From contig NZ_CAGY01000001.1 of the NCBI RefSeq assembly GCF_000308055.1, positions 372,001 to 436,000 of the forward strand: 64,000 nt of DNA, read 5' to 3'. Below the pieces are notes generated by a model, which did not search any database, was not told where the DNA came from, and was given only the letters and a program-made list of their open reading frames with translations. The stretch comes from Actinomyces sp. ph3. GTDB lineage: Bacteria > Actinomycetota > Actinomycetes > Actinomycetales > Actinomycetaceae. Shown piece after piece: positions 4,150 through 27,419 of this stretch (positions are counted from its first letter, which is position 1; each line of letters begins with the position of its first letter). Position numbers and translations under genes: made by a program.

Positions 4150-4442
4150 TAGATGGCCGAGCGGCGCAGTCGACGACGTTCGCGCTCTGACAGGCCACCC
4201 CAAATTCCGAAGCGCTCATCATTCGCCAATGCGTATTCAAGGCATTGCTGGCGAACCTCGCAAGATTGGCACACGGCCTTTGCTTCGCGAGTCGAGCCTC
4301 CCTTTTCAGGGAAGAAGGCTTCGGGGTCGGTCTGAGCGCACAGTGCGTGCTGCTGCCAGGCTAGGGGACCGTCAGAGAAGGGAAGAGCTTCAACATCGGC
4401 GTCAGACCACTCAATAGGGCCGTCACCCAGAATGTTCCACAC
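4149..4442 (-). CDS. WhiB-family iron-sulfur transcriptional regulator
   Basis: A 97-residue protein with the WhiB signature: four cysteines at 35, 58, 61 and 67 (C-x22-C-x2-C-x5-C) that should hold a [4Fe-4S] cluster, then the G-I-W-G-G turn at 79-83, then a basic tail (RERRRLRR) for DNA contact. Members bind the primary sigma factor and control cell division, development or redox responses. The start is a GTG at 4442 with AGGGG about eight bases upstream. The gene has a clear promoter of its own, with a perfect TTGACA -35 box. It leads a three-gene overlapping unit with a membrane glycosyltransferase and a DUF5719 protein. The position beside wall-glycan genes resembles the WhiB2/WhmD branch, which affects septation, but that subfamily assignment is inference. 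Confidence 0.95.
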   Translation of the reverse strand: MWNILGDGPIEWSDADVEALPFSDGPLAWQQHALCAQTDPEAFFPEKGGSTREAKAVCQSCEVRQQCLEYALANDERFGIWGGLSERERRRLRRSAI

Positions 4443-6705: not shown

Positions 6706-7677
6706 TCAGTTCGGAAGCACTGAAGAGTAGCGCAGGTAAGCCAAGCGCATGGCTTCGCGGCGGGTCTTCAAGTTACCGGATTGGAGCAATCCGACAACGA
6801 AGGACAAGACGCCAACTATCACCAGCGAGGATGCCAGTACAGCGCTGGGCAGCTTGGGAACATTGCCCGCCTGGATGAAGTGCCAGATGACGGGAGCGCC
6901 GAAGCACAGGGCCAGGAGCATGAAGATTGCAGAGAAGATTCCGTAGAAGGCCATGGGGCGTTCATGTGCAACCAAACGGCCAATCAGTCCGAGAATACGG
7001 AAGCCATCGTGGAAGGTACGCAGCTTAGATTCTGAACCTGCGGGGCGATCCTTGAAGCCAACGCCGTACTCGGCCTGAGGAACGCGCAACGCCATGGAGT
7101 GGACCGTGAGTTCGGTTTCGATCTCGAACTCGCGAGAAAGCGCCGGGAAGGACTTGACGAAACGACGAGAGAAAACACGGTAGCCGGAGAGCATGTCCGT
7201 AACCGTGTCGCCGAAGAGGAATCCGACCAGGGAGTTGAACATCTTATTTCCCTGAGCGTGGCCGGGGCGGTAAGCCGAATTATCCTTGTCGTCAACACGG
7301 CAGCCCAGAACATGATCAAGGTTTTCGCGCACCAACAGGTCGATCATTTCGGGTGCAGCAGCAGCATCGTAGGTGTCATCACCGTCGATCATCACGTAAA
7401 CATCGGCATCAATGTCTGCGAATGCGCGACGCACAACATTGCCCTTGCCCTTACGAGTTTCCTTGCGGACGATTGCGCCGGCTGCAGCTGCAACTTCAGC
7501 GGTACGGTCGGTTGAATTGTTGTCGTAAACGTAGACTTCAATTCCGGGAACTGCATTCTTCAGGTCCGTGACAACTGTGCCAACTGCGGCTTCTTCGTTG
7601 TAGCACGGGACGATTGCTGCGATACGCACCTTGAATTCCTTTTCTCCGACATCGGGGGTCACAGGCAGAGCCTGCAC
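6706..7677 (-). CDS. DPM-like family 2 glycosyltransferase (polyprenyl-phosphate sugar synthase)
   Basis: 323 residues. The GT-A domain comes first: AAIVPCYNEE at the start, the nucleotide-sugar contact DNNSTDRT, and the metal motif DGDDTYD near residue 100. Two TM helices follow in the C-terminal third (about 237-260 and 275-300). This is the architecture of enzymes that transfer a sugar from a nucleotide to polyprenyl phosphate at the inner membrane face. The GtrA gene directly downstream supports that role. The start is a GTG at 7677. A TATACG box ends five bases before it and no ribosome binding site is present, so the mRNA may be leaderless. An out-of-frame ATG lies four bases upstream of the GTG. 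The galactan operon terminator separates this gene from GlfT2. Confidence 0.88.
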   Translation of the reverse strand: MQALPVTPDVGEKEFKVRIAAIVPCYNEEAAVGTVVTDLKNAVPGIEVYVYDNNSTDRTAEVAAAAGAIVRKETRKGKGNVVRRAFADIDADVYVMIDGDDTYDAAAAPEMIDLLVRENLDHVLGCRVDDKDNSAYRPGHAQGNKMFNSLVGFLFGDTVTDMLSGYRVFSRRFVKSFPALSREFEIETELTVHSMALRVPQAEYGVGFKDRPAGSESKLRTFHDGFRILGLIGRLVAHERPMAFYGIFSAIFMLLALCFGAPVIWHFIQAGNVPKLPSAVLASSLVIVGVLSFVVGLLQSGNLKTRREAMRLAYLRYSSVLPN

Positions 7678-7877: not shown

Positions 7878-9839
7878 TTACTTCAATCCGAAGGTCTTTT
7901 CCCATGCCTGAACTGAGACCAGTTCGGGAAGAGCTTCCCGATACTCGCGGCTCAGCGAAGCCCAACGACGAATAAGCTCGGCGTGGAGCGCAATACTCTC
8001 AGCCAAGGCACGACGGTAATGCTTGGCATCGCGCTGGTAGCGCCATGCACCGGAACCTTCCGCGTTCGAAACCAGAGCAGAGTTGAGGTTTGCAAGCCTC
8101 CACCAACGAGCATCCGTGCTGGAGAGCACATCCTCAACACGGTCCTCACGGTGTTCGCCTTCAGGCAGGAACTGCTTGGTAATACCAGCGATTGCCTTTG
8201 ACATGAACTGGGCGCGTGAATCAGGCTTGGTGCCGACAGGAGCGGGCTTCTTACGGTGCACTGCCGGGAAATCTGCGGCCTCAGTCATCAGGCGGGCGTC
8301 AGTGTATTCCTTTGCCTTTGCGCGTGCCTCTGCAGCTCGGGTATGCATCGAAGGGTGCAGGTGGCCGGGGCCAAGCAAAACATCCCTGAGCCCCTGACGG
8401 CGCAGATCGGCACTGTAGTACTGCAGCGAGAGCAGTGCGCGAACGTCCGAGGCCAGCGAGGTCTTCGGGAAGGACGCACCGCGCGGGTAAGGAGAGTGCA
8501 GCAGAGCTGCAACCCAACGGTTGCGCTGGTGGAAGTAGGCCTGCCAGTCCAGACCGTCGTCCTTCTCGGTCCACGGCACGTGCCACACGGCAGCACCGGG
8601 AAGAGAGACCGTCGGGAATCCGTGTTCTGCTGCGCGCAGACCGTATTCGGAGTCGTCCCACTTGATGAAGAAGGGCAGGGACAGACCGATCTCAGCAACA
8701 ACGGGCTTGGGGATCAAGCACATCCACCAACCGTTGTAGGCAACATCGATACGGCGGTTCAAGCGAGGATCATTGCGGATCGTGCGCTGCGCCAAGTCAA
8801 CTGTTGCAAGTTCAGGGTTGACAGCTCCCCACCAGAACTTGTGAGCGTCGATCGTTTCACCCATCGAGTGCAAAATGGTGCGTTCATTCGCATTGAACAT
8901 GTGGCCACCAACAATAGTTGGCGTCAAAGTGTGCTCTGCGAAAGCAAGCGCACGAAGCAGGCCTTCAGGCTCGATCACAGCATCATCGTCAAGTAGCAGG
9001 ACGTAGTCTGAATCAGGGTTCTTGAGCATCTCGTACATGCCGCGGGAGAATCCACCGGAACCACCCAGGTTCGCCTGCTCGATGACACGGAGCTTGCTTC
9101 CCAGTTCTTCTTGCAGACGCGGGTAACGCTCGCAGTCCTTCACGTTCTTATTGCCCTGATCGACAATGAGGATCTCAGCAATGTGGTCAAGAACCTCGGG
9201 TTCTGCTTGGAAGCGTTCGGCCTGAGTCAAGCAGTCTTCGGGAAGGTTGTAGGTGGTGATACCCACGGTCACATTGGCATGACGGTCACCTTCACGCGTA
9301 GGTACTGACCAGGTTCCCCATTCGAGCTCAACGTCTTCCTTGAGGGCAGTGATTTCGGGCCAGATCCAGCCACCGTCACCAAAACGGTTCAGGGGAATAT
9401 CAAAGCTCAGCTCGCCAGATCCTGCGCGCGTTGCTACAGGGGTGAAGGTACCACGTGCCGAGGAACGCATAACCTCAACGACCGCCCTCTTCGAGAGCTT
9501 CAAAGTCAGGCGGATGTTACGAACATCTGTCCAACGTTGCCAATAAGAAGCAGGGAAGGCGTTGAAGTAAGTCGCAAGTGAGAGACGCTCACGTGCCGGG
9601 ATCAGAATCGAGGTACGAGTCGCATCCACTCCACGAGGCATTTCAAATTGTCGAAGTGTAAGTACGTTCTGATCTCCCTGAGAAGCACTTAGTGCAGCAC
9701 TTGAGGGAGCAACGCCCCAGTCGACGTAGAGCGGCCATAACGAAGTGTCACTCTCTCCGGGGAACACAACGCGTTGGACGGGAGTCCATTGCTGTTCGGT
9801 TGCAGTTCCTTCAGCAACCGCTTCGGTTTTCGCTTTCAC
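7878..9839 (-). CDS. glfT2: GlfT2-like bifunctional galactofuranosyltransferase
   Basis: Polymerises UDP-galactofuranose into a galactan on a polyprenyl-linked primer at the inner membrane face. The protein has the mycobacterial GlfT2 (Rv3808c) layout: an N-terminal beta-rich domain to about residue 180, a GT-A domain with VTVGITTYN and the catalytic LLLDDDAVIEPE (aspartates at about 284-286), the acceptor-side WWGAVN and WDDSEYGLRAAEHG motifs with WHVPW, and a helical C-terminal region that supports tetramers. At about 653 residues it matches the family length. The frame opens at an ATG at 9863, but AAGGAG sits six bases before a GTG at 9839, so the GTG is the better start. It is the last gene of the galactan operon and may also have its own promoter in the 92-base gap upstream. 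Confidence 0.92.
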   Translation of the reverse strand: MKAKTEAVAEGTATEQQWTPVQRVVFPGESDTSLWPLYVDWGVAPSSAALSASQGDQNVLTLRQFEMPRGVDATRTSILIPARERLSLATYFNAFPASYWQRWTDVRNIRLTLKLSKRAVVEVMRSSARGTFTPVATRAGSGELSFDIPLNRFGDGGWIWPEITALKEDVELEWGTWSVPTREGDRHANVTVGITTYNLPEDCLTQAERFQAEPEVLDHIAEILIVDQGNKNVKDCERYPRLQEELGSKLRVIEQANLGGSGGFSRGMYEMLKNPDSDYVLLLDDDAVIEPEGLLRALAFAEHTLTPTIVGGHMFNANERTILHSMGETIDAHKFWWGAVNPELATVDLAQRTIRNDPRLNRRIDVAYNGWWMCLIPKPVVAEIGLSLPFFIKWDDSEYGLRAAEHGFPTVSLPGAAVWHVPWTEKDDGLDWQAYFHQRNRWVAALLHSPYPRGASFPKTSLASDVRALLSLQYYSADLRRQGLRDVLLGPGHLHPSMHTRAAEARAKAKEYTDARLMTEAADFPAVHRKKPAPVGTKPDSRAQFMSKAIAGITKQFLPEGEHREDRVEDVLSSTDARWWRLANLNSALVSNAEGSGAWRYQRDAKHYRRALAESIALHAELIRRWASLSREYREALPELVSVQAWEKTFGLK

Positions 9840-9931
9840 GCGACACTCCTTCATTGTGTGCAATTATGGGCAAAGTCTATGACAGGAAAGCCAATAAAAT
9901 CTATGTCAAACCGCGGGCGCTTTGTTGACGT

Positions 9932-11938
9932 TTAGCCAAGTCCGCAAGCGGTGATCTTATAGAGACTGTAGGGGCCTTGTTGGAGCACAGGCTCGAATCC
10001 CGGGGTCTGGGGAGTAATATTCCGAACTCCTAGCCACGGGTGTGGTTCATCAAAAATTTGCTTGTGACGTTCAAGGACCATCACATAGCGCACATCAAGG
10101 TTACGAAGCATCGGACAGACCTTAGCTGAATCCGTTTCAACCGCATCGAGGTGGTCTTTTAGATATTCAGATTCAGGATTTGGTGAGCCAATCCAGTTCC
10201 CAGGCATTGCGGGGAAAACGACAGGTAGTCCTTCGACACCGTAGGCGAACATGGATCCGTCGAATGGATCATTCATGACCTTTGTGTCAGTACCGACAAT
10301 CGAGCGGGCCTTCTCCATGAATGCGAGTTCTTCGGTGTCGGTGTACTTAGTTGCGACGTCAGCACTCATCTGCGCGAGCATTTTTTCACGATACGCGATA
10401 TTCGAAGATGCAAGAGTAAGCACAACTACTGCTGCGATCAAAACAATTGATGTCCCAGCAATGAGTCCTCGCTTTACGGATGTCGAGGCACTGTTCTCAA
10501 CAAGCTTCGACACTGCGGAAATACAGGACGAGAGAGCATAGGCTGCCAAAGCAACCGCAAGGATACACATTGCGCCTGCAGGCCGGAATGAATCGTGATA
10601 CCAGAAGCCAGTTGCGACATTACGGAAGCGCCCTTCGAAGGCGGCACACAGTACGTATAGGCTCGCGACTGCAAGGTAAGAGAAAACGATCCAAGCCTTC
10701 TTGCGAAGCAAAGCGACAAGAAGCCCAAGAAGAACAAAGACCGCAAGGACGATTTCTCCGCCGTATTCACCATCGGTCGCATTCATTGACAAAGTTGCGA
10801 CTGCGCGAAGTGCTTCTGCGGGTGTTTGGAAAGAATCCCACACCCATGTGACGGTTCGGCGCATAAACGGAGCCTTATAGAGCGCAATCCAGATACCGGC
10901 CGCTGCGGCAAGCAGTGAAGTGCAGACACCAAGTGCCAGCCATACCGATCGCTTCGCACAAACCTTCCATGCGCTAAAGAACAGGAAGGGGAAAATCATC
11001 ACTGCGATGGTGAAAACAGAGTTCGGTTGCGCCAGGGCAATCGCTGCGAAGCCTCCAACTAGCAAAAGAAGGTAGGCAATGAGTTCACCTGGTGCAAGCG
11101 TCTTCAAGCGAAGACCGCGAACAAGAAGAACAATCGCGGCGAGATAAGCGGGTGTTAACGAGTACGCAAAGAAATTCGAATATAGGACACCGAATGTTAA
11201 AAAGCCCCATGGGTACGACCCAAAAAGACCGGCGATCGCAATTGCAAGCTGCGGGGCAAGGTCGAATTTCTTCGAGAAGACCGCAAAAGTAAGGAGGCTG
11301 GCAGAAAGAGGCCAAACGAAGAGCAGAACAACAAGTGTCGATGCATTAATTGCCTGCATCATCGAAGTGTTGAGCACAGAAAGAGCTAAGGAGACCCAGC
11401 CGTGCCATAGCGCAGGATAGAAATGAGAGCCGATCGTGCCATCAACCGTCGCACTGTGAAGGGAAGATGCATCGCCAGAGTCGAGAATCCAGCGAATGAC
11501 AGCCATATGGAAAGGGGTGTCATAGGAATAAAGAATTGCATCTGCGGAGCGGAACGAGCGAAGGAAGACAAAAAGAACGACGCCCGCGTTAATTCCCAAG
11601 CAGAGAAGCGTGCCCAGTAGACCACGCATATTCGACAGCGAGAAGAGATAGGTGAAACTAGCTATCCAGTCGTGGGGTCGACGACCTCCAAGGAAGGAAA
11701 GTCCTGCAACGAGAAGCATGGTCGCAAGCATCACCACGACAACAAGCCCTAAGCCCCAGACTCCGGGTTTGAACCCAGAAACTAGTGAAGCAGCACCCAA
11801 TACCGCTGCGCCAGTCAGTGGTGCAAAAGCAATAGTGAGCACTCGAGAACGGAACAGCAGGGCGTTCACTAGGATTCCCGGAACATAGAGAATCAATGCC
11901 AAGACAAGAGCCGGAACGAGGAGCGAACTCCAACCCAT
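9932..11938 (-). CDS. DUF6541-type polytopic membrane protein (probable GT-C fold)
   Basis: 668 residues with about 12-14 TM helices covering the first ~480 residues, then a soluble C-terminal domain of about 150 residues that would face outside. The first large loop carries SYDTPFHMAVIRWIL, close to the (D)xxFH motif of DUF6541 proteins. An acidic residue in this place is typical of GT-C glycosyltransferases that use polyprenyl-phosphate sugars. It may therefore add a sugar to the exported galactan, but this is inference. The ATG at 11938 has AGGAG upstream. It lies 30 bases behind wzt and before glfT2 in one operon. The position recalls Rv3779 near the mycobacterial wzm-wzt genes, though I cannot show homology. 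Confidence 0.75.
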   Translation of the reverse strand: MGWSSLLVPALVLALILYVPGILVNALLFRSRVLTIAFAPLTGAAVLGAASLVSGFKPGVWGLGLVVVVMLATMLLVAGLSFLGGRRPHDWIASFTYLFSLSNMRGLLGTLLCLGINAGVVLFVFLRSFRSADAILYSYDTPFHMAVIRWILDSGDASSLHSATVDGTIGSHFYPALWHGWVSLALSVLNTSMMQAINASTLVVLLFVWPLSASLLTFAVFSKKFDLAPQLAIAIAGLFGSYPWGFLTFGVLYSNFFAYSLTPAYLAAIVLLVRGLRLKTLAPGELIAYLLLLVGGFAAIALAQPNSVFTIAVMIFPFLFFSAWKVCAKRSVWLALGVCTSLLAAAAGIWIALYKAPFMRRTVTWVWDSFQTPAEALRAVATLSMNATDGEYGGEIVLAVFVLLGLLVALLRKKAWIVFSYLAVASLYVLCAAFEGRFRNVATGFWYHDSFRPAGAMCILAVALAAYALSSCISAVSKLVENSASTSVKRGLIAGTSIVLIAAVVVLTLASSNIAYREKMLAQMSADVATKYTDTEELAFMEKARSIVGTDTKVMNDPFDGSMFAYGVEGLPVVFPAMPGNWIGSPNPESEYLKDHLDAVETDSAKVCPMLRNLDVRYVMVLERHKQIFDEPHPWLGVRNITPQTPGFEPVLQQGPYSLYKITACGLG

Positions 11939-11968
11939 ACTTCTATCTCCTGATCTAGGTGCGAGGTA

Positions 11969-12696
11969 TCAGAGGGAACGCAGTCGATCGACTGCTTCTT
12001 GTGCTGTGCCGTCTACAAGAAGCTCACCGTGGTGGAGCAGCACTCCCCTATTGCACAGGCGCGCAATCAGGTCAAGGTCGTGGCTCACAATCACCAAGGA
12101 GGTCCCTTGCTCTTGCATTTCATGGATACGGTCAAGGCACTTGCGTTGGAAGGGCTCATCGCCCACAGCCAAAATCTCATCAACCAAGAAGATATCCGGG
12201 CTAGTGTGGACCGCAACGGCGAAAGCCAAACGCAAGAACATACCCGAGGAGTAGAACTTCACCTCGGTGTCGATAAACTTCTCAATCTCCGAAAAGGCGA
12301 CAATATCGTCAAAAGCAGCTTCGATCTGCTCTTTACTCATGCCAAGAATTGCGCCGTTGAGAAAAACATTTTCACGGCCCGTCAGGTCCGGGTGGAAGCC
12401 CGCACCAACTTCAATGAGGCCGGCCATGCGTCCGCGGTATCCCACCGAGCCCTCGTCCGGCGTAATGACACCTGAAATGAGCTTAAGCATTGTGGACTTA
12501 CCGGAACCGTTGAAGCCGATCAGACCGATCGAATCCCCCTGCTCAACCGAGAAACTCACATGGTTGAGTGCGCGGAAATGATTCACCAGCTGATTGCGAC
12601 GCCCCGTCAAGCTCCAGACCAAACGGTCTTTCAGAGTGTGCGTATTGCGCAGTGCGAATTCTTTGACAACATCATCAACGCGAATAACTTCAGTCA

Positions 12697-12697
<1 letters not shown>
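11969..12697 (-). CDS. wzt: ABC polysaccharide exporter ATPase (Wzt/TagH type)
   Basis: 242 residues. Walker A is GFNGSGKST, the signature is the YSSGM variant found in O-antigen and teichoic acid exporters, Walker B is FLVDEIL, and the H-loop lies in VIVSHDLD. The protein ends after the nucleotide-binding domain, so it has no C-terminal carbohydrate-binding domain. It resembles mycobacterial Rv3781 in this. Export should then not depend on recognising a chain cap. The frame runs on upstream to 12793, but the ATG at 12697 shares one base with the permease stop (TGATG), so I chose it. It energises export of lipid-linked galactan together with the permease encoded just upstream. Confidence 0.93.
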
Positions 12698-15653
<2,956 letters not shown>

Positions 15654-15657
<4 letters not shown>

Positions 15658-16667
15658 CGAGGCTCCCCCTCTGAGCAGCCACATGCTTCAGAGCCGGATG
15701 AGGAGCACCGGCAGCCGCAGCCGCAGGAACGGTGACCTTGTTCAAGAGCAGCGACTTCATCGGCGACCTCAGTCAGATGCAGGATTTCACTGGAGCGCAG
15801 CGGCGGACGCCAGGCATCACGAAGTCCCTCACGCAGGTATCCGAGTGCGGCTTCGCGGTCGGCCGAGGCGGCAATCATCTTTGCCCAGCGAAGCACAGTG
15901 GCAGCCCCAAAAGCACATCGATCAAAAAGACCAAAGCCCGAAGAAGTTCCAAGCGCCCAGACTTTGTTACGAACTTCGTTGTAGAAACGCGGGCCGGGAT
16001 CAGCAGTAGAGTTACCGAAAGTCTTCGTTCGGTGCTCGACGCGTGCACCATCCACGTAAAGCCCCACTCGCCCTTTGAGAAGGCGCGCGGTGTACTCAAA
16101 GTCGTCATTCCACAAGAAGTAGGCTGCTTCGGGTAGCCCCTCTTCTTCAATCGCACGCGCATCGATCAAGATTGCAACGAATGATGCCGTGCGAATCTGA
16201 CGCGCTCCAACGGCAGCCGCGTGTTCACGCAGCTCGCGGGAGATCAAGAAGCGTTCGCGAGGCGCATTCATCGGATGTTCGCGTCCGTCAATCCAATCGG
16301 CTCGACACGCCAAAACGGCGGGTGTGCCAGGGTATTCCTCACGAGTGCGTAGCAAGACCTCAAGGGCAGTAGGAGTTGGGATCGTGTCATCATCCATGAT
16401 CCATACGAGGTCTGCTCCTAAAGTCATCGCTCGAGCAATTCCCGCGGCAAAGCCACCGGCGCCACCGTAATTTTGGGGAAGGGTCACAACATTGGTGACG
16501 GCAGGATGTGAGGCAATGAGCTGCGGAGTTTCATCGCTGGAAGCATTGTCAACGACGACAACTCCATCCAATGGTCGGGTCTGCGAGGCAAGGCCGTCCA
16601 AGGTTTCACGCAAGAGCTGTGCTCGGTTCCATGCAACGACGACGGCGATGACGGTTGGATTGCTCAT
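15654..16667 (-). CDS. glfT1: GlfT1-like galactofuranosyltransferase with cysteine-rich tail
   Basis: 337 residues. The GT-A domain begins IAVVVAWNRAQLL, has VVVDNASSDETP, NYGGAGGFAAGI and the metal motif WIMDDDTIPTP (near residue 93), and an acceptor region FLWNDDFEYTARL. This matches the enzyme that starts galactan by adding the first galactofuranose residues to the lipid-linked primer (Rv3782 in mycobacteria). The C-terminus is odd: after residue 310 the chain ends in HRSCGCGCRCSSSGSEACGC plus five more residues, six cysteines that the family does not normally carry. The gene opens the galactan operon. Its ATG follows a TAGGCT box by six bases with no ribosome binding site, so the mRNA may be leaderless. 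Confidence 0.88.
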
Positions 16668-16673
16668 GGGATA

Positions 16674-16704
16674 AGCCTACGGGCAAATGTGAGGTATATG
16701 CCAA
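16674..16704 (-). promoter_or_regulatory. Candidate promoter of the galactan operon
   Basis: Minus strand: TTGGCA (16704-16699), a long 19-base spacer, then TAGGCT (16679-16674) six bases before the ATG of the GlfT1-like gene. A TAGGCT -10 is also proposed for valS. Confidence 0.4.
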
Positions 16705-16785
16705 GTAATGCACATAAATTCTGAATAATATTCGGATAGGGTGTTTGAAGAGTTAGTTTCTCTTTGCCCCCCAGGAGATTCACTA

Positions 16786-18735
16786 ATGCGTTCTTCGCTT
16801 TTTGCTTCATCGTGTGCAGCTGCGGCATTGTTTGCCCTCAGCATTGCACCGATTTCGCTTGCCTCTCCCACTTCCGAGGCCGACGCTCCCACCCCATCAA
16901 CGCAGGCGTCTTCCCCAACTCAGACTGAAACCCCCGCACCCGAAGCATCCCCATCTACAAGCGTGCCCTCTTCGGATGGCTCCACGACACCCTCGGGAGA
17001 CACTCCGACCGGGGAAAGTATTCCGAATGGTGAAGACCGCTCTGCTACTGATGACAATGTGTCCCTCTCCCCCGAGGAACAGATCCGCCAGCGCTGGCAG
17101 GACATGGGCGCAGAAAACCGAGTACTTGGCACCGCAACTTCTGGACTAGTCCCCCTGCGCGACGGGGCTTTCATCCAGTTCTACCGCGGCGGCCAAATCT
17201 ACTGGACCGCTCAATACGGTGCGCATGCCTCGCGCGGTGGAATCCACAGTGCCTACGGCGCACAAAGATGGGAAAACGGCCCTCTGGGTTTCCCGACCTC
17301 TGATGAAGAAGCCCAGACTATCGGTGGAATTCGCGGCGCGCTTCAAACTTACGAGAACGGCCAAATTCGTTGGAGCAGCCAGGGCGGGGCTCACCCCATC
17401 TGGGGCAAGATCCTCGAACGCTACGAAATCGCAGAATCAGAAGGTCGTTCCCTGGGCTGGCCAACCGCGAATGAAATGAAAGATGCCGCGGATGGAGGGG
17501 CCTACCAGCACTTCACTGGCGGCTCAATCTACTTCCACTCCCGCACCGGCGCTCACAGGGTTACCGGTGGCATCCGTAATCTGTGGGAAAGACAGGGCTG
17601 GGAACGCGGCCATATGGGCTACCCTGCGGGTGAAGAAACCCCGGCGGCGCTCGGTGGTGTTTATCAGGCTTTCCAAGGAGGAACCACATACTGGCACCCC
17701 CGCACTGGCAGCTACTACGTACACGATGCAATGCTGGGAGCGTACGGTGCAGCCGAATATGAGCGTGGACGCTACGGCTATCCTTTGACCAATGAAACCC
17801 CCTCGGCAAACGGTGGTGTTTTTCAGCGTTTCCAAGGCGGAACTGCCTACTGGCACCCCGGTTCGGATTCATATTTCGTCCACGACGCAATCATGGGGAC
17901 CTACGGTTTCTACAACTGGGAGCGAGGCGAACTCGGTTACCCCTTAACCAACGAAACAGCTTCCGCAAATGGTGGTATCTTCCAACGTTTCCAAGGCGGG
18001 ACAATCTACTGGTCCCCTCGCACAGGATCTCACGCGGTCCCACTTTCAATGCTGGACCTTTATGGCCAACACGGCTTTGAGCGCGGGCACCTGGGATACC
18101 CAACATCAGAGCCCTATTGGGATGGCAACCGTGAGAAGCAAAACTTCGAGCACGGGGTCTTGGAAAAGACCAACGATTTCAATGTGACCTGGGCCGGACA
18201 GCCCAATAACTACTTCTGCGGTCCGGCCAGTGGATGGATGATCCTCAACGCAATTGGTGCGCACCACTCCGCGCAGGGAACACCGCTCAGCATTGACGCG
18301 GTTGCAAGCCGCGATTACATGAACACCGTGGGATACGGCTACACAAGCTTCCACGATCGCCGTTTTGAATATGGGATGAACCGCTGGTTGGGCCGTGATG
18401 CCTACACCACGATTCACACTCCTTCGGTTGATCAGGTTCGAGATTCGGTAAAGAACTCCTTCCGTAAGGGACTCCCCACCACTGTTGATGCCCAAGAGCG
18501 TCGAGGTGGCCCCCACTACAACGGTCACCCGAATAGCACCTTCTCCCACATCATGGTTGTGACTTCCTACGATCCCAACACCGATTCCATGCGGATTGCC
18601 GACCCGGGAGTTCACTACCTGTGGAACGGCGAGGAACAGTTCTGGTACCACCTGCCCTCATTCACCCAGAACTTCCTCCAAACCGAGGTTGAGCGAGACG
18701 GCCGTGAACACATTGGCATCTACACCGCGCGCTGA
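16786..18735 (+). CDS. Secreted LGFP-repeat protein with C-terminal C39-like peptidase domain
   Basis: 649 residues. A signal peptide (MRSSLFASS, then a hydrophobic core ending SLASP) is followed by a Pro/Ser/Thr spacer to about residue 100. Seven LGFP-type repeats of ~54 residues follow (LGTATS, LGFPTSDE, LGWPTANE, MGYPAGEE, YGYPLTNE, LGYPLTNE, LGYPTSEP; about residues 105-445). The C-terminal domain has a papain-like C39 layout: NYFCGPASG with Cys at about 478, FSHIMVV with His at about 588, and IADPG with Asp at about 606. LGFP repeats bind the actinobacterial cell wall; the C39 domain may cut peptides or peptidoglycan stems. The ATG at 16786 has AGGAG upstream; the frame's earlier ATG (16741) would add a non-signal extension. 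The gene is divergent from the galactan operon. Confidence 0.88.
   Translation: MRSSLFASSCAAAALFALSIAPISLASPTSEADAPTPSTQASSPTQTETPAPEASPSTSVPSSDGSTTPSGDTPTGESIPNGEDRSATDDNVSLSPEEQIRQRWQDMGAENRVLGTATSGLVPLRDGAFIQFYRGGQIYWTAQYGAHASRGGIHSAYGAQRWENGPLGFPTSDEEAQTIGGIRGALQTYENGQIRWSSQGGAHPIWGKILERYEIAESEGRSLGWPTANEMKDAADGGAYQHFTGGSIYFHSRTGAHRVTGGIRNLWERQGWERGHMGYPAGEETPAALGGVYQAFQGGTTYWHPRTGSYYVHDAMLGAYGAAEYERGRYGYPLTNETPSANGGVFQRFQGGTAYWHPGSDSYFVHDAIMGTYGFYNWERGELGYPLTNETASANGGIFQRFQGGTIYWSPRTGSHAVPLSMLDLYGQHGFERGHLGYPTSEPYWDGNREKQNFEHGVLEKTNDFNVTWAGQPNNYFCGPASGWMILNAIGAHHSAQGTPLSIDAVASRDYMNTVGYGYTSFHDRRFEYGMNRWLGRDAYTTIHTPSVDQVRDSVKNSFRKGLPTTVDAQERRGGPHYNGHPNSTFSHIMVVTSYDPNTDSMRIADPGVHYLWNGEEQFWYHLPSFTQNFLQTEVERDGREHIGIYTAR
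17100..18120 (+). repeat. Seven tandem LGFP-type coding repeats
   Basis: Repeat units of about 162 bases encode the motif (L/M/Y)G(F/W/Y)P, then a variable stretch and a F-x-G-G-x-x-Y-W core. The last four units are the most alike, which suggests recent internal duplication. Confidence 0.8.
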
Positions 18736-20131
18736 GGGTTCGGTCGTTCCGGGAGCGCTGGCTAACCAGCCACATCCCGGCTCCCATCTTCATTCCCGAG
18801 GCCGCGCATCCCTGCGTCGCCTTGCTCTCCTCAGTGCTTGTGCCCTTTTTGCGCTCGCTGGCTGCGCGAGCGGAGGAAGCGGGGATTCTTCCACCTCGGC
18901 GAGCACACCGGTATCGCCTCGTCAGATGAACGGCGTTTTCGAGCCGCTCGTTGCGCAGTCCTCGCTGGAGGATCCGCACGAAAACGTCTGCACCGATCTC
19001 TCTCTTCCTTTTGAGATCATCGCAATGCATGCGAGTGATGAGCCATGCGCTTTGTCTCCATCGGGACAAAGCCAGGCGTCTTCCGTAGATGAGAAATGGA
19101 CACTCGGCGGGGATTTCCGGCAGATTCCTTCTCTTCCCATCGACGACTCCCAGGTTTTTGGGTCCTCAACAAACGACCCGAACGATCTGTACTCCTACAA
19201 GCCCGCAATTCTCACCCCTCAGGGGGCACGCGATCTATCTGCCGATCTCCTTCGAGAAGACGGCAACTACGTTGAGCCGCTCGATGGAACACAAAACGGT
19301 CCTTGGATTACTTTCCTTGGCCGGCAGGTTTCTTCGTCCTCGACCGGAGATCACCAAGAAGACAATGTCTTCGCCCCGTGGACGATTTACTCCTGGAATA
19401 GGGACGAGCAGCGCCTCCGTACCGTAATGACGTGGAGCGATCTTCCCGCTCATAGTCCACGAAGCTCAGGTGAGCTTCCTCCTGTCAGCGATGAGACACA
19501 CGCGTTTTACGGTGCAAAAGCCTCAACTGATCACGGAGATTTTTCACTGATCATCGCCCAAGGCCTCGAGGATTCAACGCGCTCCAACAAGCCGCAAGTT
19601 CTTCTCTACGGCGCCTACCCCGCGGTCTCTGAGCATGGGCTCAGCGTGGTTGCAACTACGATGAACTCGCCTCTGCCCTCTCGCGTCGCCACGCTCAGCG
19701 GAACTGATTTCTCAAAGGTCACCACACACTTCGACCTCAAATCACAGGACTATCGAATCAGTGGGCTCTACGCGGCCGGAGATCACCACGCAGTCCTCGT
19801 CAGCCCCTCAAGTACTTCTTCCGCGGCCTCGTCCTACCTTGGACTCTGGGACAGCTCTTCCACCGACTACCCCACGCACTGGATCATGGTCGACTCGCGA
19901 ACTCCTTGGGTGTCCATCGGTGAAGAGGCAATCGCGTGGGGTGCGGGATCGCAGGCGAACAATGCACAGATGTACCTGCGTCGATGGGAAACCGGGCAGA
20001 TCACACGTCTGGGAGAAACCCCCGGATATTCGCGTCCCGTTGTCGCAGCAAGTGGACGCACACTGATGATCCCTCATGTGAACAGCCAGGGCGGCATTCA
20101 ATGGAGTATCGGAGAATTTACTGCGGAATAA
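18704..20131 (+). CDS. Lipoprotein of unknown function, probable beta-propeller (start uncertain)
   Basis: The body of the protein has a lipoprotein signal (SLRRLALLSACALFALAGC) followed by a Gly/Ser/Thr spacer and a ~400-residue domain with repeated WxxxD and GL-type beta-strand patterns (for example LGLWDSSS, YLRRWETGQITRLG), suggestive of a propeller. I do not recognise the family. The start is a problem. Between the upstream stop (18735) and the signal peptide no in-frame ATG, GTG or TTG exists. The nearest are a GTG at 18704 and a TTG at 18713, both inside the end of the LGFP gene and giving a long N-region, or a CTG directly before the RR pair. I list the GTG. It probably belongs to one unit with the LGFP gene and lies upstream of the LCP genes. 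Confidence 0.65.
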   Translation: MNTLASTPRAEGSVVPGALANQPHPGSHLHSRGRASLRRLALLSACALFALAGCASGGSGDSSTSASTPVSPRQMNGVFEPLVAQSSLEDPHENVCTDLSLPFEIIAMHASDEPCALSPSGQSQASSVDEKWTLGGDFRQIPSLPIDDSQVFGSSTNDPNDLYSYKPAILTPQGARDLSADLLREDGNYVEPLDGTQNGPWITFLGRQVSSSSTGDHQEDNVFAPWTIYSWNRDEQRLRTVMTWSDLPAHSPRSSGELPPVSDETHAFYGAKASTDHGDFSLIIAQGLEDSTRSNKPQVLLYGAYPAVSEHGLSVVATTMNSPLPSRVATLSGTDFSKVTTHFDLKSQDYRISGLYAAGDHHAVLVSPSSTSSAASSYLGLWDSSSTDYPTHWIMVDSRTPWVSIGEEAIAWGAGSQANNAQMYLRRWETGQITRLGETPGYSRPVVAASGRTLMIPHVNSQGGIQWSIGEFTAE

Positions 20132-20154
20132 CACGCGGAGAACTCAAGTAACGA

Positions 20155-20160
20155 TATGAT
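20155..20160 (+). promoter_or_regulatory. -10 box (TATGAT) seven bases before the first LCP gene
   Basis: TATGAT differs from the consensus at one base and ends seven bases before the ATG at 20168. No good ribosome binding site serves either this ATG or the one at 20156. This favours a leaderless mRNA that starts at 20168. Confidence 0.5.
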
Positions 20161-20167
20161 AAACGCG

Positions 20168-21433
20168 ATGAGTACTCCACAACCGCGCGATGCGCGACCG
20201 ATCCTGCACTCTGCGACGCTCCCTTTCAAGAGCGGTGCGGCACGAGTGGTTTCACTGGTTGCTTTTAGCTGCGTTCTGCTGTTGGTGTGGACAATGTTTT
20301 TTGTCTATCACAGCTTTGGTAGCCAGCTTTCGGCAAACAGCATCAACACAAACGGTCTTGGAAATGCGAATTCAACCGAATCCGCAGCACCCTCGGACTC
20401 TTTCGAAGGCCGCGCCGTCAATATCTTGATTTCGGGTATTGACTCACGGCAGAACCAAGGCGATGACGCCAATGGTGATCCCGATGAACTTTCGTCTATC
20501 CACTCGGATACGACCATGTTCATGCATATTTCTGCGGACCGCTCGCGAATCCAGGTCGTCTCTATCCCCCGAGATCTGATTACCGATATTCCCTCATGCC
20601 GCCGCTCCGATGGCACGATATCCTCTGCCTACACGGGAATGTTTAACTCCGCGTTCTCAACGGGTTCGAATGACACCGATATCGCAGGTGGCATTGCCTG
20701 TACCGAGGCCACAGTTGAGCAACTGACCGGAACGAAGGTTGATGGCTTTGTCGTCGTCGACTTCCACGGTTTCCGCGGCTTGATTGATGCTCTTGGAGGG
20801 GTTTGGTTCGATATCCCCGAAGATATCGATGATTCCAAGTCAGACCTTCACGTTCAAGCAGGGTGCCAGAAGCTCGATGGCAAGACTGCACTTGCCTACG
20901 CGCGCACACGCTACGCCGTTGGGGATGGCTCCGACCTTGGCCGTATCTCCAACCAGCAGAAGCTTGTCGCGGCAATTATGCGCGAGTTGATGGCGAAGAA
21001 CTTCGTTTCCGATCTTCCCTCACTCCTGTCTTTCACAAAGCAGGGTCTTTCAGCTCTGCAGCCTTCGCAGAACCTGTCAAACATCAACACCGACGTGGGC
21101 CTGATGCTCTCGCTCACTTCGGTGAATCGTTCGAATATTCAGTTCATCACCTCACCGAATCAGTATTCGCCGGTTGACCCGAACCGAGTCATCAACCTGG
21201 AGCCTCAGTTCAGCCAGGTGTGGGAAGCAATCCGCAAGGACCAGCCCTTCCCTGCGACCATTGAGTTCACTAATGGCAGCGGTGAAGACGGACAGACGAA
21301 TGCTCCCGCTCAGGATCCTTCGGCCTCGCCTTCCTCATCTCAGAGTGCATCTGCTTCCGCAACACCCAGTGCAAGCGCGTCGCAATCTCCAAGCGCCACG
21401 CCAACTCAAAAGCCCTGTCCCCCGGAGAAGTGA
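20168..21433 (+). CDS. LytR-CpsA-Psr (LCP) family wall-glycan ligase 1
   Basis: About 421 residues. A short cytoplasmic N-terminus leads to one TM helix (about 25-48), then the extracellular LCP domain: NILISGIDSR, the SDTTMFMHI and IPRDL motifs with the catalytic arginine region, GFRGLIDALGGV, and the C-terminal LAYARTRY and GSDLGRISNQQ. A low-complexity Ser/Ala/Pro tail follows. LCP enzymes move polyprenyl-linked glycans onto peptidoglycan outside the cell. The galactan operon nearby makes a matching substrate. An ATG at 20156 is in frame, but the -10 box overlaps it, so I prefer 20168. The stop overlaps the start of the second LCP gene. Confidence 0.93.
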   Translation: MSTPQPRDARPILHSATLPFKSGAARVVSLVAFSCVLLLVWTMFFVYHSFGSQLSANSINTNGLGNANSTESAAPSDSFEGRAVNILISGIDSRQNQGDDANGDPDELSSIHSDTTMFMHISADRSRIQVVSIPRDLITDIPSCRRSDGTISSAYTGMFNSAFSTGSNDTDIAGGIACTEATVEQLTGTKVDGFVVVDFHGFRGLIDALGGVWFDIPEDIDDSKSDLHVQAGCQKLDGKTALAYARTRYAVGDGSDLGRISNQQKLVAAIMRELMAKNFVSDLPSLLSFTKQGLSALQPSQNLSNINTDVGLMLSLTSVNRSNIQFITSPNQYSPVDPNRVINLEPQFSQVWEAIRKDQPFPATIEFTNGSGEDGQTNAPAQDPSASPSSSQSASASATPSASASQSPSATPTQKPCPPEK

Positions 21434-22749
21434 TGACTCAGCCGCCTTCATTCCAGCCTGATCCTTCACGTCGGCGGCCTCGTCTTTCAGAGGTCGCAAA
21501 TGCTGGTGCCCAGAATGAAGAGGCGGCTGCCCACCACCGCAAAGCTGCCACTGAGTCCGCGCAGCACTCTGCTGCTCAACACAGCACACCGGATGAGCCG
21601 TCCCGCGTTCAAGAAGAGGCGATGCCTCCCTCCTTTGCACCCCGCGCGCGACGAACCCAGCCCCCGGCCTACGCACCCTCAGCTCCAGCGCGGGAATCCG
21701 TAGGTGCGACTTCTAGGCCTCCTGTGCAGGCTGCAACGCAACGCCCACACTTCCAACCTGTTCAATCCCAACCCAGCGCACGTCAAGCCGCAGGCGTAGG
21801 CCCAGCGAGGCCTCGTCAGAGGAAGAAGAGGCGCTGGCCTCTTGTCGTCGTCGCGTGCGTTCTACTCATGCTCGCATGGCCTGTTTTCCTGATGCTTGAT
21901 GCCAACTCGCATTTAAAGAAGATCGATGCGCTATCAGGCGCTGCCAATACTTCTGGAACAACGTATCTATTAGCAGGATCAGATTCGCGCGCAGACGGCT
22001 CGGTTCCCGACGACACCGAGGGGCAACGCGCAGATTCGATCATGCTTGTTCACGTTGCTCCCAATGGACAGACCAGCAATATCTCACTCCCCCGCGATAC
22101 CTACGTCGAAATCCCCGGTTATGGCTGGGACAAGCTCAATGCCTCATACGCATATGGCGGCCCCGCGCTCCTAGTCAAGACGGTCGAAAAGCTCACCGGA
22201 CTTACCGTCGATCACTATGCAGAGATCGGAATGGGCGGAGTATCCAACATTGTCGACGCAGTCGATGGGGTGAATCTGTGCTTCGATCTCAGCGTTGAAG
22301 ATGAACGCTCGGAGCTCAATTGGGAAGCCGGATGCCATGATGCCGACGGTAAGACTGCGCTGGCATTTGCGCGCATGCGCTATTCGGATCCACGGGGCGA
22401 CATCGGACGTGCTGAACGCCAGCGCCAGGTTGTGTCGAAGACCGTTTCAAAGGCGATGAAACCGGCAACGCTACTCAACCCGATGAGTGCCCTACGCGTT
22501 GAACGAGCTGGCGCTTCCGCATTCACGGTCGATCAGGACTCATCTGTTATTGACGTTGCGCGCTTGGTACTGGCATTCCGTGAAGCGCAAAACTCCGGAA
22601 TGACCGGTGTTCCCCCGATCGAATCGCTGGGCTATGCGACATCGGCGGGAAGTGCGGTGCTGCTTGAAGATACGACCGCACCGGATTTCTTCGCCAAGCT
22701 TCGTGCTGGGACACTCACAAAAGACGACCTAGCATCCCAGTCCTCATAA
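21433..22749 (+). CDS. LytR-CpsA-Psr (LCP) family wall-glycan ligase 2
   Basis: 438 residues. The N-terminal ~135 residues are cytoplasmic, rich in Pro, Gln, Ala and Arg, and end in a basic patch (RQRKKRR). One TM helix follows, then the LCP domain: YLLAGSDSR, RADSIMLVHV, SLPRDTYVEIP, LNASYAYGG, and the closing LAFARMRY and GDIGRAERQRQ. It should act like the neighbouring LCP protein, but the long cytoplasmic part could receive signals such as phosphorylation. The ATG at 21433 has GGAG five bases upstream and shares one base with the preceding stop (TGATG). A GTG at 21430 is less likely because it would be too near the binding site. Two LCP genes in tandem may serve different glycans. Confidence 0.93.
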   Translation: MTQPPSFQPDPSRRRPRLSEVANAGAQNEEAAAHHRKAATESAQHSAAQHSTPDEPSRVQEEAMPPSFAPRARRTQPPAYAPSAPARESVGATSRPPVQAATQRPHFQPVQSQPSARQAAGVGPARPRQRKKRRWPLVVVACVLLMLAWPVFLMLDANSHLKKIDALSGAANTSGTTYLLAGSDSRADGSVPDDTEGQRADSIMLVHVAPNGQTSNISLPRDTYVEIPGYGWDKLNASYAYGGPALLVKTVEKLTGLTVDHYAEIGMGGVSNIVDAVDGVNLCFDLSVEDERSELNWEAGCHDADGKTALAFARMRYSDPRGDIGRAERQRQVVSKTVSKAMKPATLLNPMSALRVERAGASAFTVDQDSSVIDVARLVLAFREAQNSGMTGVPPIESLGYATSAGSAVLLEDTTAPDFFAKLRAGTLTKDDLASQSS

Positions 22750-25078: not shown

Positions 25079-26074
25079 TCAGGACTGAGAGGGGACCTCG
25101 ATTGCGCGAGGCCCGGCCTGCCAGGCATCCCATGCAGACTGCAGAATCTCGGTGACACCGTAGTTAGCCTTCCAGCCCAAATCCACAGCAATCGACTGGG
25201 GATCGCCAATGAGCATGGGCGGGTCACCTGCGCGACGATCGAGTTCGTCGACCGGGAAATTCCAGCCGGAAACCGCGCGAAGACCATCGATGATCTCACG
25301 GACCGAAGTGCCCAGACCGGTACCCACATTGAATTGACGATGTGCAGGAACGCCGCGCGTCAGGGCATCCAGAGCAAAGATGTGAGCATCGGCCAGGTCT
25401 TTGACGTGGATGTAGTCGCGGATGCAGGTTCCATCATCGGTTGGGTAATCCGTTCCGAAGATCTTCGGGTGCTCACCGCGAGCCAAACGGTCAAGGACCA
25501 TAGGAACCAAGTTGAGGCATGCGGGATCGGCAAGATCATTCCATCCAGCGCCGGCAACGTTGAAGTAACGTAGTCCGATCCAGTTGAGGCCCCATGCGCG
25601 TTCAGCATCGGCCATCATCCATTCGCCGATCAACTTGGTCTCGCCGTAAGGGTTGATGGGCTTCTTCTCAATATCCTCGGGAATCACGGGAACCGGAGGC
25701 ATCCCATAAACGGCAGCTGAGGAAGAGAAAATCATGTTCTTTACGCCGGCTTCCTCCATTGCCAGCAAAACATTCGCCAAACCACCGATATTTTGACGGT
25801 AGTACCACGCAGGACGTTCAACAGATTCGCCGACCTGCTTCTGAGCAGCAAAATGAATAACGCCAGTGACGTCTTCGTCGATCATTGCCTGGGTCAAGAT
25901 GGGCAGAGCCTCATCGCGTGCGACATCCACTTCAATAAGTGTCGCATCGCCAATTCGATTGGCTGCGCCGGTGGTCAGATTGTCAACAACAACAACCTTT
26001 TCGCCACGTTCCAGCAGAAGACGAACAACGTGTGCGCCGATGTAGCCGGCGCCTCCCGTAACAAGAATGCTCAT
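25079..26074 (-). CDS. galE: UDP-glucose 4-epimerase
   Basis: 331 residues of the extended short-chain dehydrogenase type. The NAD-binding motif is VTGGAGYIGAHV at the N-terminus. The catalytic Ser is in FSSSAAVYG, Tyr and Lys in NPYGETK. Later family marks are RYFNVAGA, DYIHVKDLADAH and NVGTG. It interconverts UDP-glucose and UDP-galactose and so can feed glf and the galactan enzymes at 8-17 kb. The frame is open to 26134, but the family N-terminus is at the ATG at 26074. A TACACT box ends seven bases before this ATG and no ribosome binding site is seen, so a leaderless mRNA is likely in addition to read-through from the histidine kinase gene 19 bases upstream. Confidence 0.96.
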   Translation of the reverse strand: MSILVTGGAGYIGAHVVRLLLERGEKVVVVDNLTTGAANRIGDATLIEVDVARDEALPILTQAMIDEDVTGVIHFAAQKQVGESVERPAWYYRQNIGGLANVLLAMEEAGVKNMIFSSSAAVYGMPPVPVIPEDIEKKPINPYGETKLIGEWMMADAERAWGLNWIGLRYFNVAGAGWNDLADPACLNLVPMVLDRLARGEHPKIFGTDYPTDDGTCIRDYIHVKDLADAHIFALDALTRGVPAHRQFNVGTGLGTSVREIIDGLRAVSGWNFPVDELDRRAGDPPMLIGDPQSIAVDLGWKANYGVTEILQSAWDAWQAGPRAIEVPSQS

Positions 26075-26081
26075 GGAATTC

Positions 26082-26087
26082 AGTGTA
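26082..26087 (-). promoter_or_regulatory. -10 box (TACACT) before galE
   Basis: Minus strand TACACT lies seven bases before the galE ATG, in the gap after the histidine kinase stop. No -35 box is clear. Confidence 0.45.
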
Positions 26088-26093
26088 CGGCAA

Positions 26094-27419
26094 TTAAAAG
26101 CGTCGTGAGCGCCGCCCCATCGAGACCAGCGCACCCTCTGGCATCACGCGCCCAGGGTCATAGCTAGCGGGAATCGCTGCCAAAGAGAGAGTGAATACTG
26201 GTGGCACCGTCTGAGTGAGCTCGATGCGGCCACCCATCGTTTCAATGAGGTCCTTCGCCAATGCCAAACCAATTCCGCTGGAACCGTGACCCGACACCCC
26301 ATTTTTGAAAATATAGGGGGCCAATTCAGCATCGACACCTTCGCCTTCATCGGAGACCTCGATAATGACGCCTCGACTGTTAGCGCTATTGCGCGCGTGC
26401 ACCCAGGTCGTGCCAGCACCATAGCGCAAGGAATTTTCGATCAAGGTTGCAAGCACCTGCGCAATCTTGGCCTCATCCGCAAGAATCGGCATATCTGCCT
26501 CATCCGTGAAGCGTAAGACGCGATCGGCTTTTTCGAAGGCTTCTTCCCATTCTTCACGCTGGGTGTTGAAGACCTCCAGAACGTCGATCGCTTCAGTTGC
26601 AGATGCCTGTCGTTTATTTGTATCCAGCAGCTCGGTGACTACCGTTGTCAACCGTTCAATCTGTTCGAGGCATGAACGTGCTTCTTCCTGTACTTCTTCT
26701 TCGGTCGAAATCATTTCGATTTCTTCCAGGCGCATGGAAAGCGCGGTTAAAGGAGTGCGAAGCTGATGTGAGGCATCGGCGGCCAGCTGACGTTCGGCGG
26801 CCAAACGGCGTGCCATCTTTTCGCCCGTACGCTGAAGTTCCTCTTGAACAAGATCGATTTCTTCAATCCCTGAAGGCTTGACACGCGCTCGGACCTGTCC
26901 GGAACCAATTTGTTCCGCTTGAGCCGAAAGATAGATCAGAGGTGCCGAAAGACGCCGCGAAAAACGCGCTGCAAGGGCCCAGCCAACAACCAAAGAGACA
27001 AGGATCCCTAAAAGGAAAATCCCTGAAACACGAACGATGCTTCGAATCGCGTTACGCGCTGAAATCATGACCGTCACTTTGACGCCATCGGGTGATGAGG
27101 CACTTCGAGTGATAGTGATTCCACGAAGCCTCTCCCCCAGAGTAATGGGCTGTGGGTTCTGGGGAATCATAATTTCGACGTAGGCCGGCTCTCCGTTGGT
27201 CACAAGGGTTTGCGCCCACATGCGCGCATAACCTTCAGACAGAGTCGAGGTGCGAAGTCGTCGATCAAGATTGGTTTGAACCGTCTGCACGCGGGCGTCC
27301 AGCGACGTCGTTTGCGAATTCCAGACGATCAAAGAAGACGCCACAGCCGCGGGGATACCGAAAATCAGTGCGACAACCGCAACCGCGGTCAAAATCATTC
27401 GCGCAGCACGTCTACGCAT
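26094..27419 (-). CDS. Sensor histidine kinase of a two-component system
   Basis: 441 residues. One TM helix near the N-terminus, an extracellular sensor region of about 95 residues, a second TM helix (about 130-153), then HAMP (to about 205), the phosphoacceptor helix with DASHQLRTPL (His near 218), and the ATPase domain with ENSLRYGAG, DEGEGVD and GSSGIGLALA. The short sensor region carries no motif that names a signal. It should phosphorylate the response regulator encoded 17 bases upstream. The chain continues about 40 residues beyond the ATPase core as a basic tail (MGRRSRRF at the end). galE follows closely, but that may be chance. Confidence 0.95.
   Translation of the reverse strand: MRRRAARMILTAVAVVALIFGIPAAVASSLIVWNSQTTSLDARVQTVQTNLDRRLRTSTLSEGYARMWAQTLVTNGEPAYVEIMIPQNPQPITLGERLRGITITRSASSPDGVKVTVMISARNAIRSIVRVSGIFLLGILVSLVVGWALAARFSRRLSAPLIYLSAQAEQIGSGQVRARVKPSGIEEIDLVQEELQRTGEKMARRLAAERQLAADASHQLRTPLTALSMRLEEIEMISTEEEVQEEARSCLEQIERLTTVVTELLDTNKRQASATEAIDVLEVFNTQREEWEEAFEKADRVLRFTDEADMPILADEAKIAQVLATLIENSLRYGAGTTWVHARNSANSRGVIIEVSDEGEGVDAELAPYIFKNGVSGHGSSGIGLALAKDLIETMGGRIELTQTVPPVFTLSLAAIPASYDPGRVMPEGALVSMGRRSRRF

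Follow-up and report, generated by a model that had tools for sequence, protein, structure and literature searches.

The window, meaning the whole 64,000-nucleotide stretch of Actinomyces sp. ph3 that was analyzed, contains an operon on the minus strand (7878-16667). In the order of transcription, it encodes a GlfT1-like GT2 glycosyltransferase, a second GT2 glycosyltransferase (GT2b), the uridine diphosphate (UDP)-galactopyranose mutase Glf, the exporter components Wzm and Wzt, a membrane protein of family DUF6541, and the galactofuranosyltransferase GlfT2. End-to-start overlaps run from the GlfT1-like gene through Wzt, and a purine-rich box lies upstream of the starts of GT2b (15657), Glf (14738), Wzt (12697/12700), and perhaps GlfT2 (9839). 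A divergent group on the plus strand (16741-22749) comprises an LGFP/C39 protein, a lipoprotein-like open reading frame (ORF), and two LCP proteins. All genes named at the locus in an earlier note on this DNA (the original prediction), that is glf, GlfT1-like, GlfT2, Wzm/Wzt, a further GT2, DUF6541, LGFP, and two LCP genes, are present according to Pfam, NCBIfam, or PDB matches (Table 1). The operon probably serves to make a galactofuran secondary wall polymer that lacks arabinan and mycolate, to export it, and to decorate it, with a conserved backbone and a decorating gene that is exchanged between relatives.

Table 1. Features of the window, with assignments and supporting matches
Feature	Position	Strand	Basis and remarks
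GT2a, GT2 resembling polyprenyl-phosphate sugar synthases, proposed to make the donor of DUF6541	6706..7677	-	TIGR04182, NF058614, 5mlz matches
GlfT2-type galactofuranosyltransferase (polymerase)	7878..9863	-	PF17994/PF13641/PF19320; start may be 9854 or 9839
DUF6541, GT-C membrane glycosyltransferase, Rv3779-like, swapped allele	9932..11938	-	PF20176 467 bits
Wzt-like ABC ATPase, polysaccharide exporter	11969..12697	-	PF00005; start probably at 12697, listed ORF extends to 12793
Wzm-like ABC-2 permease	12697..13575	-	PF01061 55.4 bits
Glf, UDP-galactopyranose mutase	13572..14738	-	TIGR00031 338.9 bits; ORF listed to 14831
GT2b, proposed linker-sugar transferase, GlfT1-like partner	14794..15657	-	PF00535; ORF listed to 15684
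GlfT1-like GT2, proposed galactan starter	15654..16667	-	NF050113 97.7 bits, cutoff 330
LGFP/C39 protein: one N-terminal hydrophobic segment, six LGFP repeats, C39-peptidase-like domain	16741..18735	+	PF08310 299.8 bits, PF13529 (Peptidase_C39_2), hydropathy
ORF, lipoprotein-like by eye	18596..20131	+	sequence, hydropathy; no Pfam match at E 0.001; listed start overlaps LGFP gene, true start probably further in
LCP glycopolymer transferase 1	20156..21433	+	PF03816 142.5 bits, above cutoff
LCP glycopolymer transferase 2	21430..22749	+	PF03816 150.8 bits, above cutoff
GalE, UDP-glucose 4-epimerase (UDP-galactopyranose supply)	25079..26134	-	TIGR01179 339.2 bits, cutoff 262.3

Galactan genes and distribution of the cassette

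Glf clears the TIGR00031 equivalog cutoff of 303.75 bits and is the only PF03275 match in the genome (1.86 Mb, 99.83% complete). GlfT2 matches PDB chain 9dtp_A, a solved structure named galactofuranosyltransferase, with 448.8 bits and bears the N-terminal, catalytic, and third domains of such enzymes. Its residues D292-D294 (DDD), W402-D404 (WDD), and H428, which we take to be catalytic, are invariant across 13 aligned GlfT2 proteins. The best NCBIfam models for Wzt (NF010065, 201.9 bits; NF050108, 168.5 of 400 bits) and Wzm (NF050109, 47.8 of 380 bits) are those of teichoic acid and galactan exporters, all under cutoff. Judged by these profile matches, Wzt, Wzm, and the GlfT1-like protein are akin to the mycobacterial models, though below their cutoffs. 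GalE and Glf would supply UDP-galactofuranose (UDP-Galf), GlfT2 would polymerize the galactan, and Wzm/Wzt would export it.

In the genome profile search, Emb (PF04602) and AftA (PF12250) gave no match, with the Corynebacterium glutamicum control matched by both, and DprE1-type ALO (PF04030) gave none either, with three controls including C. glutamicum matched, two of them above cutoff. The ketoacyl-synthase search used PF00109, with models for Pks13 and Fbp outside its scope, and its sole match sits in a frame of 3075 amino acids, the size of FAS-I, which speaks against Pks13. Because of these results, a galactofuran pathway without arabinan or mycolate, as originally predicted, is well supported by the gene content. 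Elsewhere in the window (34846-36150), a PF00756 esterase adjoins an LPG_synthase_C protein, and among NCBIfam models it weakly matches those of S-formylglutathione hydrolase and depolymerase; PF00756 also includes mycolyltransferases.

A scan of named genomes returned at least 592 pattern matches and at least 581 relatives, and the 80 best loci among these were retained. These are mostly from Arthrobacter and close relatives, and the rest include Kocuria, Rothia, Cellulosimicrobium, Kineococcus, Actinomadura, Actinomyces massiliensis, and Boudabousia. No mycolate genus occurs in their titles, with some loci belonging to unplaced metagenome-assembled genomes (MAGs). In 66 of the 80, the quartet Glf, GlfT2, Wzm, and Wzt is encoded on a single strand no more than 6 kb from GlfT2, and 65 of these 66 share the order Glf, GlfT2, Wzm, Wzt; only L047 has the order of the window. 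Among the remaining 14, several run into a contig end, and the four genes are spaced more widely in L048 and L065. The idea of a unique locus was thus rejected, and the contiguity stressed in the original prediction is the usual state of the cassette among these loci. The literature matches listed, from a search with most subscription journals outside it, contain no report of GlfT2 cassettes outside mycolate bacteria. Across the phylum, PF19320 of GlfT2 occurs in 16 of 296 genomes, 15 of them above cutoff. Three genomes classed as mycolate-type from GlfT1 score and gene order (G315, G130, and G358; L026, L027, and L028) have an additional, divergent GlfT2 (84-105 bits versus 279-297 for the first), which in G358 lies near GlfT1-like and Wzt-like genes (L044).

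Galf polymers of nonmycolate actinobacteria are cited in passages of PMC7278926, namely a sulfated Arthrobacter polysaccharide-peptidoglycan complex and the wall galactan of Bifidobacterium catenulatum; these passages tie no genes to either structure. Galactan in nonmycolate walls is therefore known chemistry and not the undescribed polymer type that had been proposed; what this analysis contributes is the gene cassette together with the arguments on linker and DUF6541. Neither the probably rhamnose-free linker nor the identity and swapping of DUF6541 was noticed in the original prediction. For Kineococcus rubinsiae, a carrier of the cassette (L080), part of PMC7472656 gives galactose, glucose, and mannose with minor arabinose and ribose as whole-cell sugars; this composition fits a galactan and does not prove it. 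In an excerpt of PMC6612551, Actinobaculum, Actinotignum, and Arcanobacterium are listed with glucose and rhamnose, not galactose, and wall sugars of Trueperella were not seen in the literature examined.

Proposed linker synthesis

The protein is labeled GlfT1-like only, since its NF050113 score falls below the cutoff; GlfT1 of the mycolate-type locus L148 scores 540 bits. All 15 members of its set (A4) match NF050113 with E-values of 1e-5 or better, and among PDB sequences it meets generic glycosyltransferases only. GT2b finds no PDB sequence at E-values up to 0.01. GT2b matches above 150 bits occur in 15 loci, and a GlfT1-like gene adjoins in all of them. The two form a single open frame in K. 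rubinsiae, A. massiliensis (L101), and a Jiangellales MAG (L117). Outside this count, GT2b is interrupted by a contig end in L113, and L096 and L111 hold weak matches (62-63 bits) with no GlfT1-like neighbor. Conversely, GlfT1-like matches above 150 bits occur in 20 loci, five of them without GT2b (L029, L105, and L154 of these are one genome). This adjacency and fusion suggest that GT2b and the GlfT1-like enzyme act in consecutive steps.

According to a passage of PMC7168186, the acceptor of mycobacterial GlfT1 is decaprenyl diphosphate-linked N-acetylglucosamine-rhamnose (GlcNAc-Rha). RmlD above cutoff was not found in the genome, where the best match (35 bits versus a cutoff of 224) is the GalE of the window. 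The RmlD-like proteins of three genus mates score 210-214 bits, just under the cutoff, so the cutoff alone can miss, yet no score in this genome comes near theirs. RmlD clears the cutoff in all four mycolate-type genomes and in two of 12 other GlfT2 genomes, the ten that fail scoring at most 54 bits. As a marker of GT2b, its absence was tried and does not separate the genomes, since none of the four with GT2b pass but only two of the eight nonmycolate-type genomes without it do. A GlcNAc-rhamnose linker is unlikely here because RmlD was not found, and GT2b would add a second linker sugar other than rhamnose, to which the GlfT1-like enzyme would attach the first Galf. The preceding step, transfer of GlcNAc-phosphate to polyprenyl phosphate, would fall to WecA. 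Two PF00953 proteins are encoded in the genome, and the one near G000:C10:304860 is WecA-like (TIGR02380, 80.8 bits versus 59.3 for MraY, both below cutoff); its gene adjoins genes read by eye as an ATP synthase operon. The pathway called complete in the original prediction needs at least this WecA-like gene, which lies outside the window.

DUF6541 as a replaced, putatively decorating gene

Aligned by hhalign, DUF6541 shows full-length homology to Rv3779-type proteins (E 2e-36, 615 columns), represented by the DUF6541 proteins of the mycolate-type genomes, whose gene order and N terminus led to their treatment as Rv3779 orthologues. The closest known counterparts would be the Rv3779 galactosamine transferase and C. 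glutamicum Cgp_0658, called its orthologue in PMC9671496. The structure model (predicted local distance difference test score 90.5) has a GT-C fold and matches OST, ArnT, and AftA. Such GT-C enzymes (OST, ArnT, AftA, AftD, and Emb) resemble DUF6541 in fold at a sequence identity of 7-15%, and PF20176 is still listed as of unknown function in Pfam. No PDB sequence matched at E-values up to 1, and no entry of a viral structure library matched the model at 0.001 or better. Residue D140, located after model helix 104-128, is invariant and may be the catalytic acid. Because of this fold and homology, DUF6541 is probably a side-chain transferase. Rv3779-type enzymes add galactosamine to arabinogalactan, and a passage of PMC5964476 gives branched arabinan as the reported acceptor. 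Since no arabinan genes were found in this genome, the acceptor of DUF6541 would have to differ. Its donor could come from GT2a, which matches AglJ (TIGR04182, 215.9 bits, cutoff 325) and dolichol-phosphate-mannose synthase 5mlz (E 4.5e-12), lies far under the PpgS cutoff (NF058614, 48.3 of 370 bits), and has two C-terminal hydrophobic segments. GT2a would make a polyprenyl-phosphate sugar, and DUF6541 would transfer the side sugar outside the membrane.

The nearest locus, L047, is labeled Trueperella pyogenes 331_TPYO. It shares three long DNA matches with the window, which show 90.5-91.9% identity, so that the label need not apply to the source species, and which end near the ends of the DUF6541 gene. 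The core proteins are 96-100% identical and GT2a 98.8%, against 55% for DUF6541. Four-fold sites agree at 47/150 positions in DUF6541, 162/228 in GlfT2, and 115/133 in GlfT1. Fast evolution in place was rejected, as four-fold sites of DUF6541 are near random while those of GlfT2 and GlfT1 largely match; by this comparison of the two sequences, the difference is a gene replacement and not drift. Comparable breaks occur in Arthrobacter. Between L060 and L085, the sequences flanking the DUF6541 slot on either side align at 80-82% and the slot itself does not align, and L082 and L118 align at 92% and 83% on its flanks and not inside, L118 gaining an LGFP gene. Six locus pairs were compared at four-fold sites, and the identities of GlfT2 and DUF6541 are 0.85 and 0.43 for L082/L118, 0.64 and 0.40 for L050/L051, 0.50 and 0.30 for L093/L098, and, with weak contrast, 0.43 and 0.33 for L060/L085. 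Among the 53 locus pairs whose GlfT2 proteins share 80% identity or more, 43 have a DUF6541 identity below 45%; the pairs are nonindependent, and the comparison uses the best-matching DUF6541 copies, not always at equal positions.

As a wider proposal, which we put forward only tentatively, nonmycolate actinobacteria would share a conserved cassette for galactofuran backbone and export with an exchangeable DUF6541 GT-C slot. A swap would change the surface sugar of the wall galactan, as with teichoic acid side-chain genes, and phages would be the probable source of the selective pressure. If this is true, DUF6541 is a large family of wall-polymer decorators with Rv3779 as its characterized member, and the slot predicts which gene determines how phages or antibodies recognize these walls. 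The results give DUF6541 a fold and a probable function, and the cassette offers candidate genes for the galactans of Arthrobacter-like bacteria, previously known as chemistry. In nonmycolate hosts, galactan synthesis and Rv3779-type decoration could be studied apart from arabinan and mycolates.

Three consecutive DUF6541 genes adjoin the cassette in A. massiliensis (L101:2042-8599). The genus mates L150, L151, and L152 keep one longer DUF6541 (758-763 amino acids) without GlfT2, and the family may therefore decorate other polymers as well. The word DUF6541 occurs in no paper of the literature searched, which left out most subscription journals. In L047, the interval between GlfT2 and GT2a (12067-15011) spans 3.2 kb versus only 0.2 kb in the window and holds an Acyl_transf_3 gene directly after GlfT2 (PF01757, 86.7 bits), followed by minus-strand frames that resemble, by eye, a holin, an amidase-type lysin, and a small regulator.

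Proposed wall attachment and alternative readings

The LCP proteins would join the polymer to peptidoglycan. From context this link is weak, because LCP and LGFP genes were each found near the cassette in only six of the best 80 loci (lower bounds, as some loci end early, L047 before its LCP region); their linkage, tried as general support, was set aside. Together with these low counts, further observations speak against a decorated wall galactan. The GlfT1-like protein, Wzt, Wzm, GT2a, and the WecA-like protein are all under NCBIfam cutoffs. GlfT2 is patchy: PF19320 occurs in seven of 81 family genomes, including the source genome and G012 (the latter with weak, divergent matches only), and in none of three genus mates. 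The latter retain Glf, around which no other operon gene was found save one weak GT2a-like match in one of the three. DUF6541 was found in 47 of the 80 named loci, and two of the pairs compared at four-fold sites kept their alleles (GlfT2 versus DUF6541, 0.54 and 0.55 in L061/L075, 0.71 and 0.61 in L096/L111). A PF20176 search gave no match in C. glutamicum, and reports on Rv3779 activity conflict (PMC3485146).

A capsular or free galactofuran, or a lipid-anchored glycan, unattached to peptidoglycan and with the two LCPs serving another polymer, is unlikely as the product. It would agree with the scarcity of LCP genes near the cassette and with the phosphoglycero-beta-galactofuran of Bifidobacterium bifidum, classed as capsular in part of PMC12413058. 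However, the two LCP genes of the window are 3.5 kb away from the operon, and among the best 80 loci the cassette is commonest in Arthrobacter, whose cited polymer is complexed with peptidoglycan.

The closest known system is the mycobacterial arabinogalactan pathway, which shares Glf, GlfT2, the ABC exporter, a GlfT1-like starter, and the DUF6541/Rv3779-type GT-C protein; the mycobacterial counterparts are Rv3809c (Glf), Rv3808c (GlfT2), Rv3782 (GlfT1), Rv3781 (Wzt), Rv3783 (Wzm), and Rv3779. An LGFP protein near glf is likewise found in two mycolate-type genomes (L041 and L045). These common Galf enzymes and exporter type, and DUF6541 adjoining Wzt and GlfT1 in two mycolate-type genomes, would fit a stripped arabinogalactan that kept the mycobacterial linker, GlfT1, and galactan, lost arabinan and mycolates, and has a DUF6541 unrelated to the polymer. 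Unlike in mycobacteria, all cassette genes form one operon, and Emb, AftA, and DprE1 are without matches. The additional GT2b as partner of the GlfT1-like gene, the lack of an RmlD match above cutoff, and the scores of the GlfT1-like protein and exporter below the family cutoffs make the stripped arabinogalactan very improbable. Least credible is a transfer of glycan by the adjacent LCP to a sortase-anchored surface protein, as described for LcpA/GspA of Actinomyces oris in passages of PMC7831098, since neither a sortase nor an anchor domain was found among the scanned proteins of the window (no genome-wide search was made). Actinomyces belongs to the same bacterial family as the source organism.

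Apart from the wall galactan operon favored here, the window encodes at 1108-4203 a protein of 1031 amino acids that has a GT2 domain at its N terminus and contains about 13 hydrophobic segments. Its relatives lie near GlfT2 in five loci (L030, L037, L086, L105, and L112) and are 27-34% identical over the aligned part.

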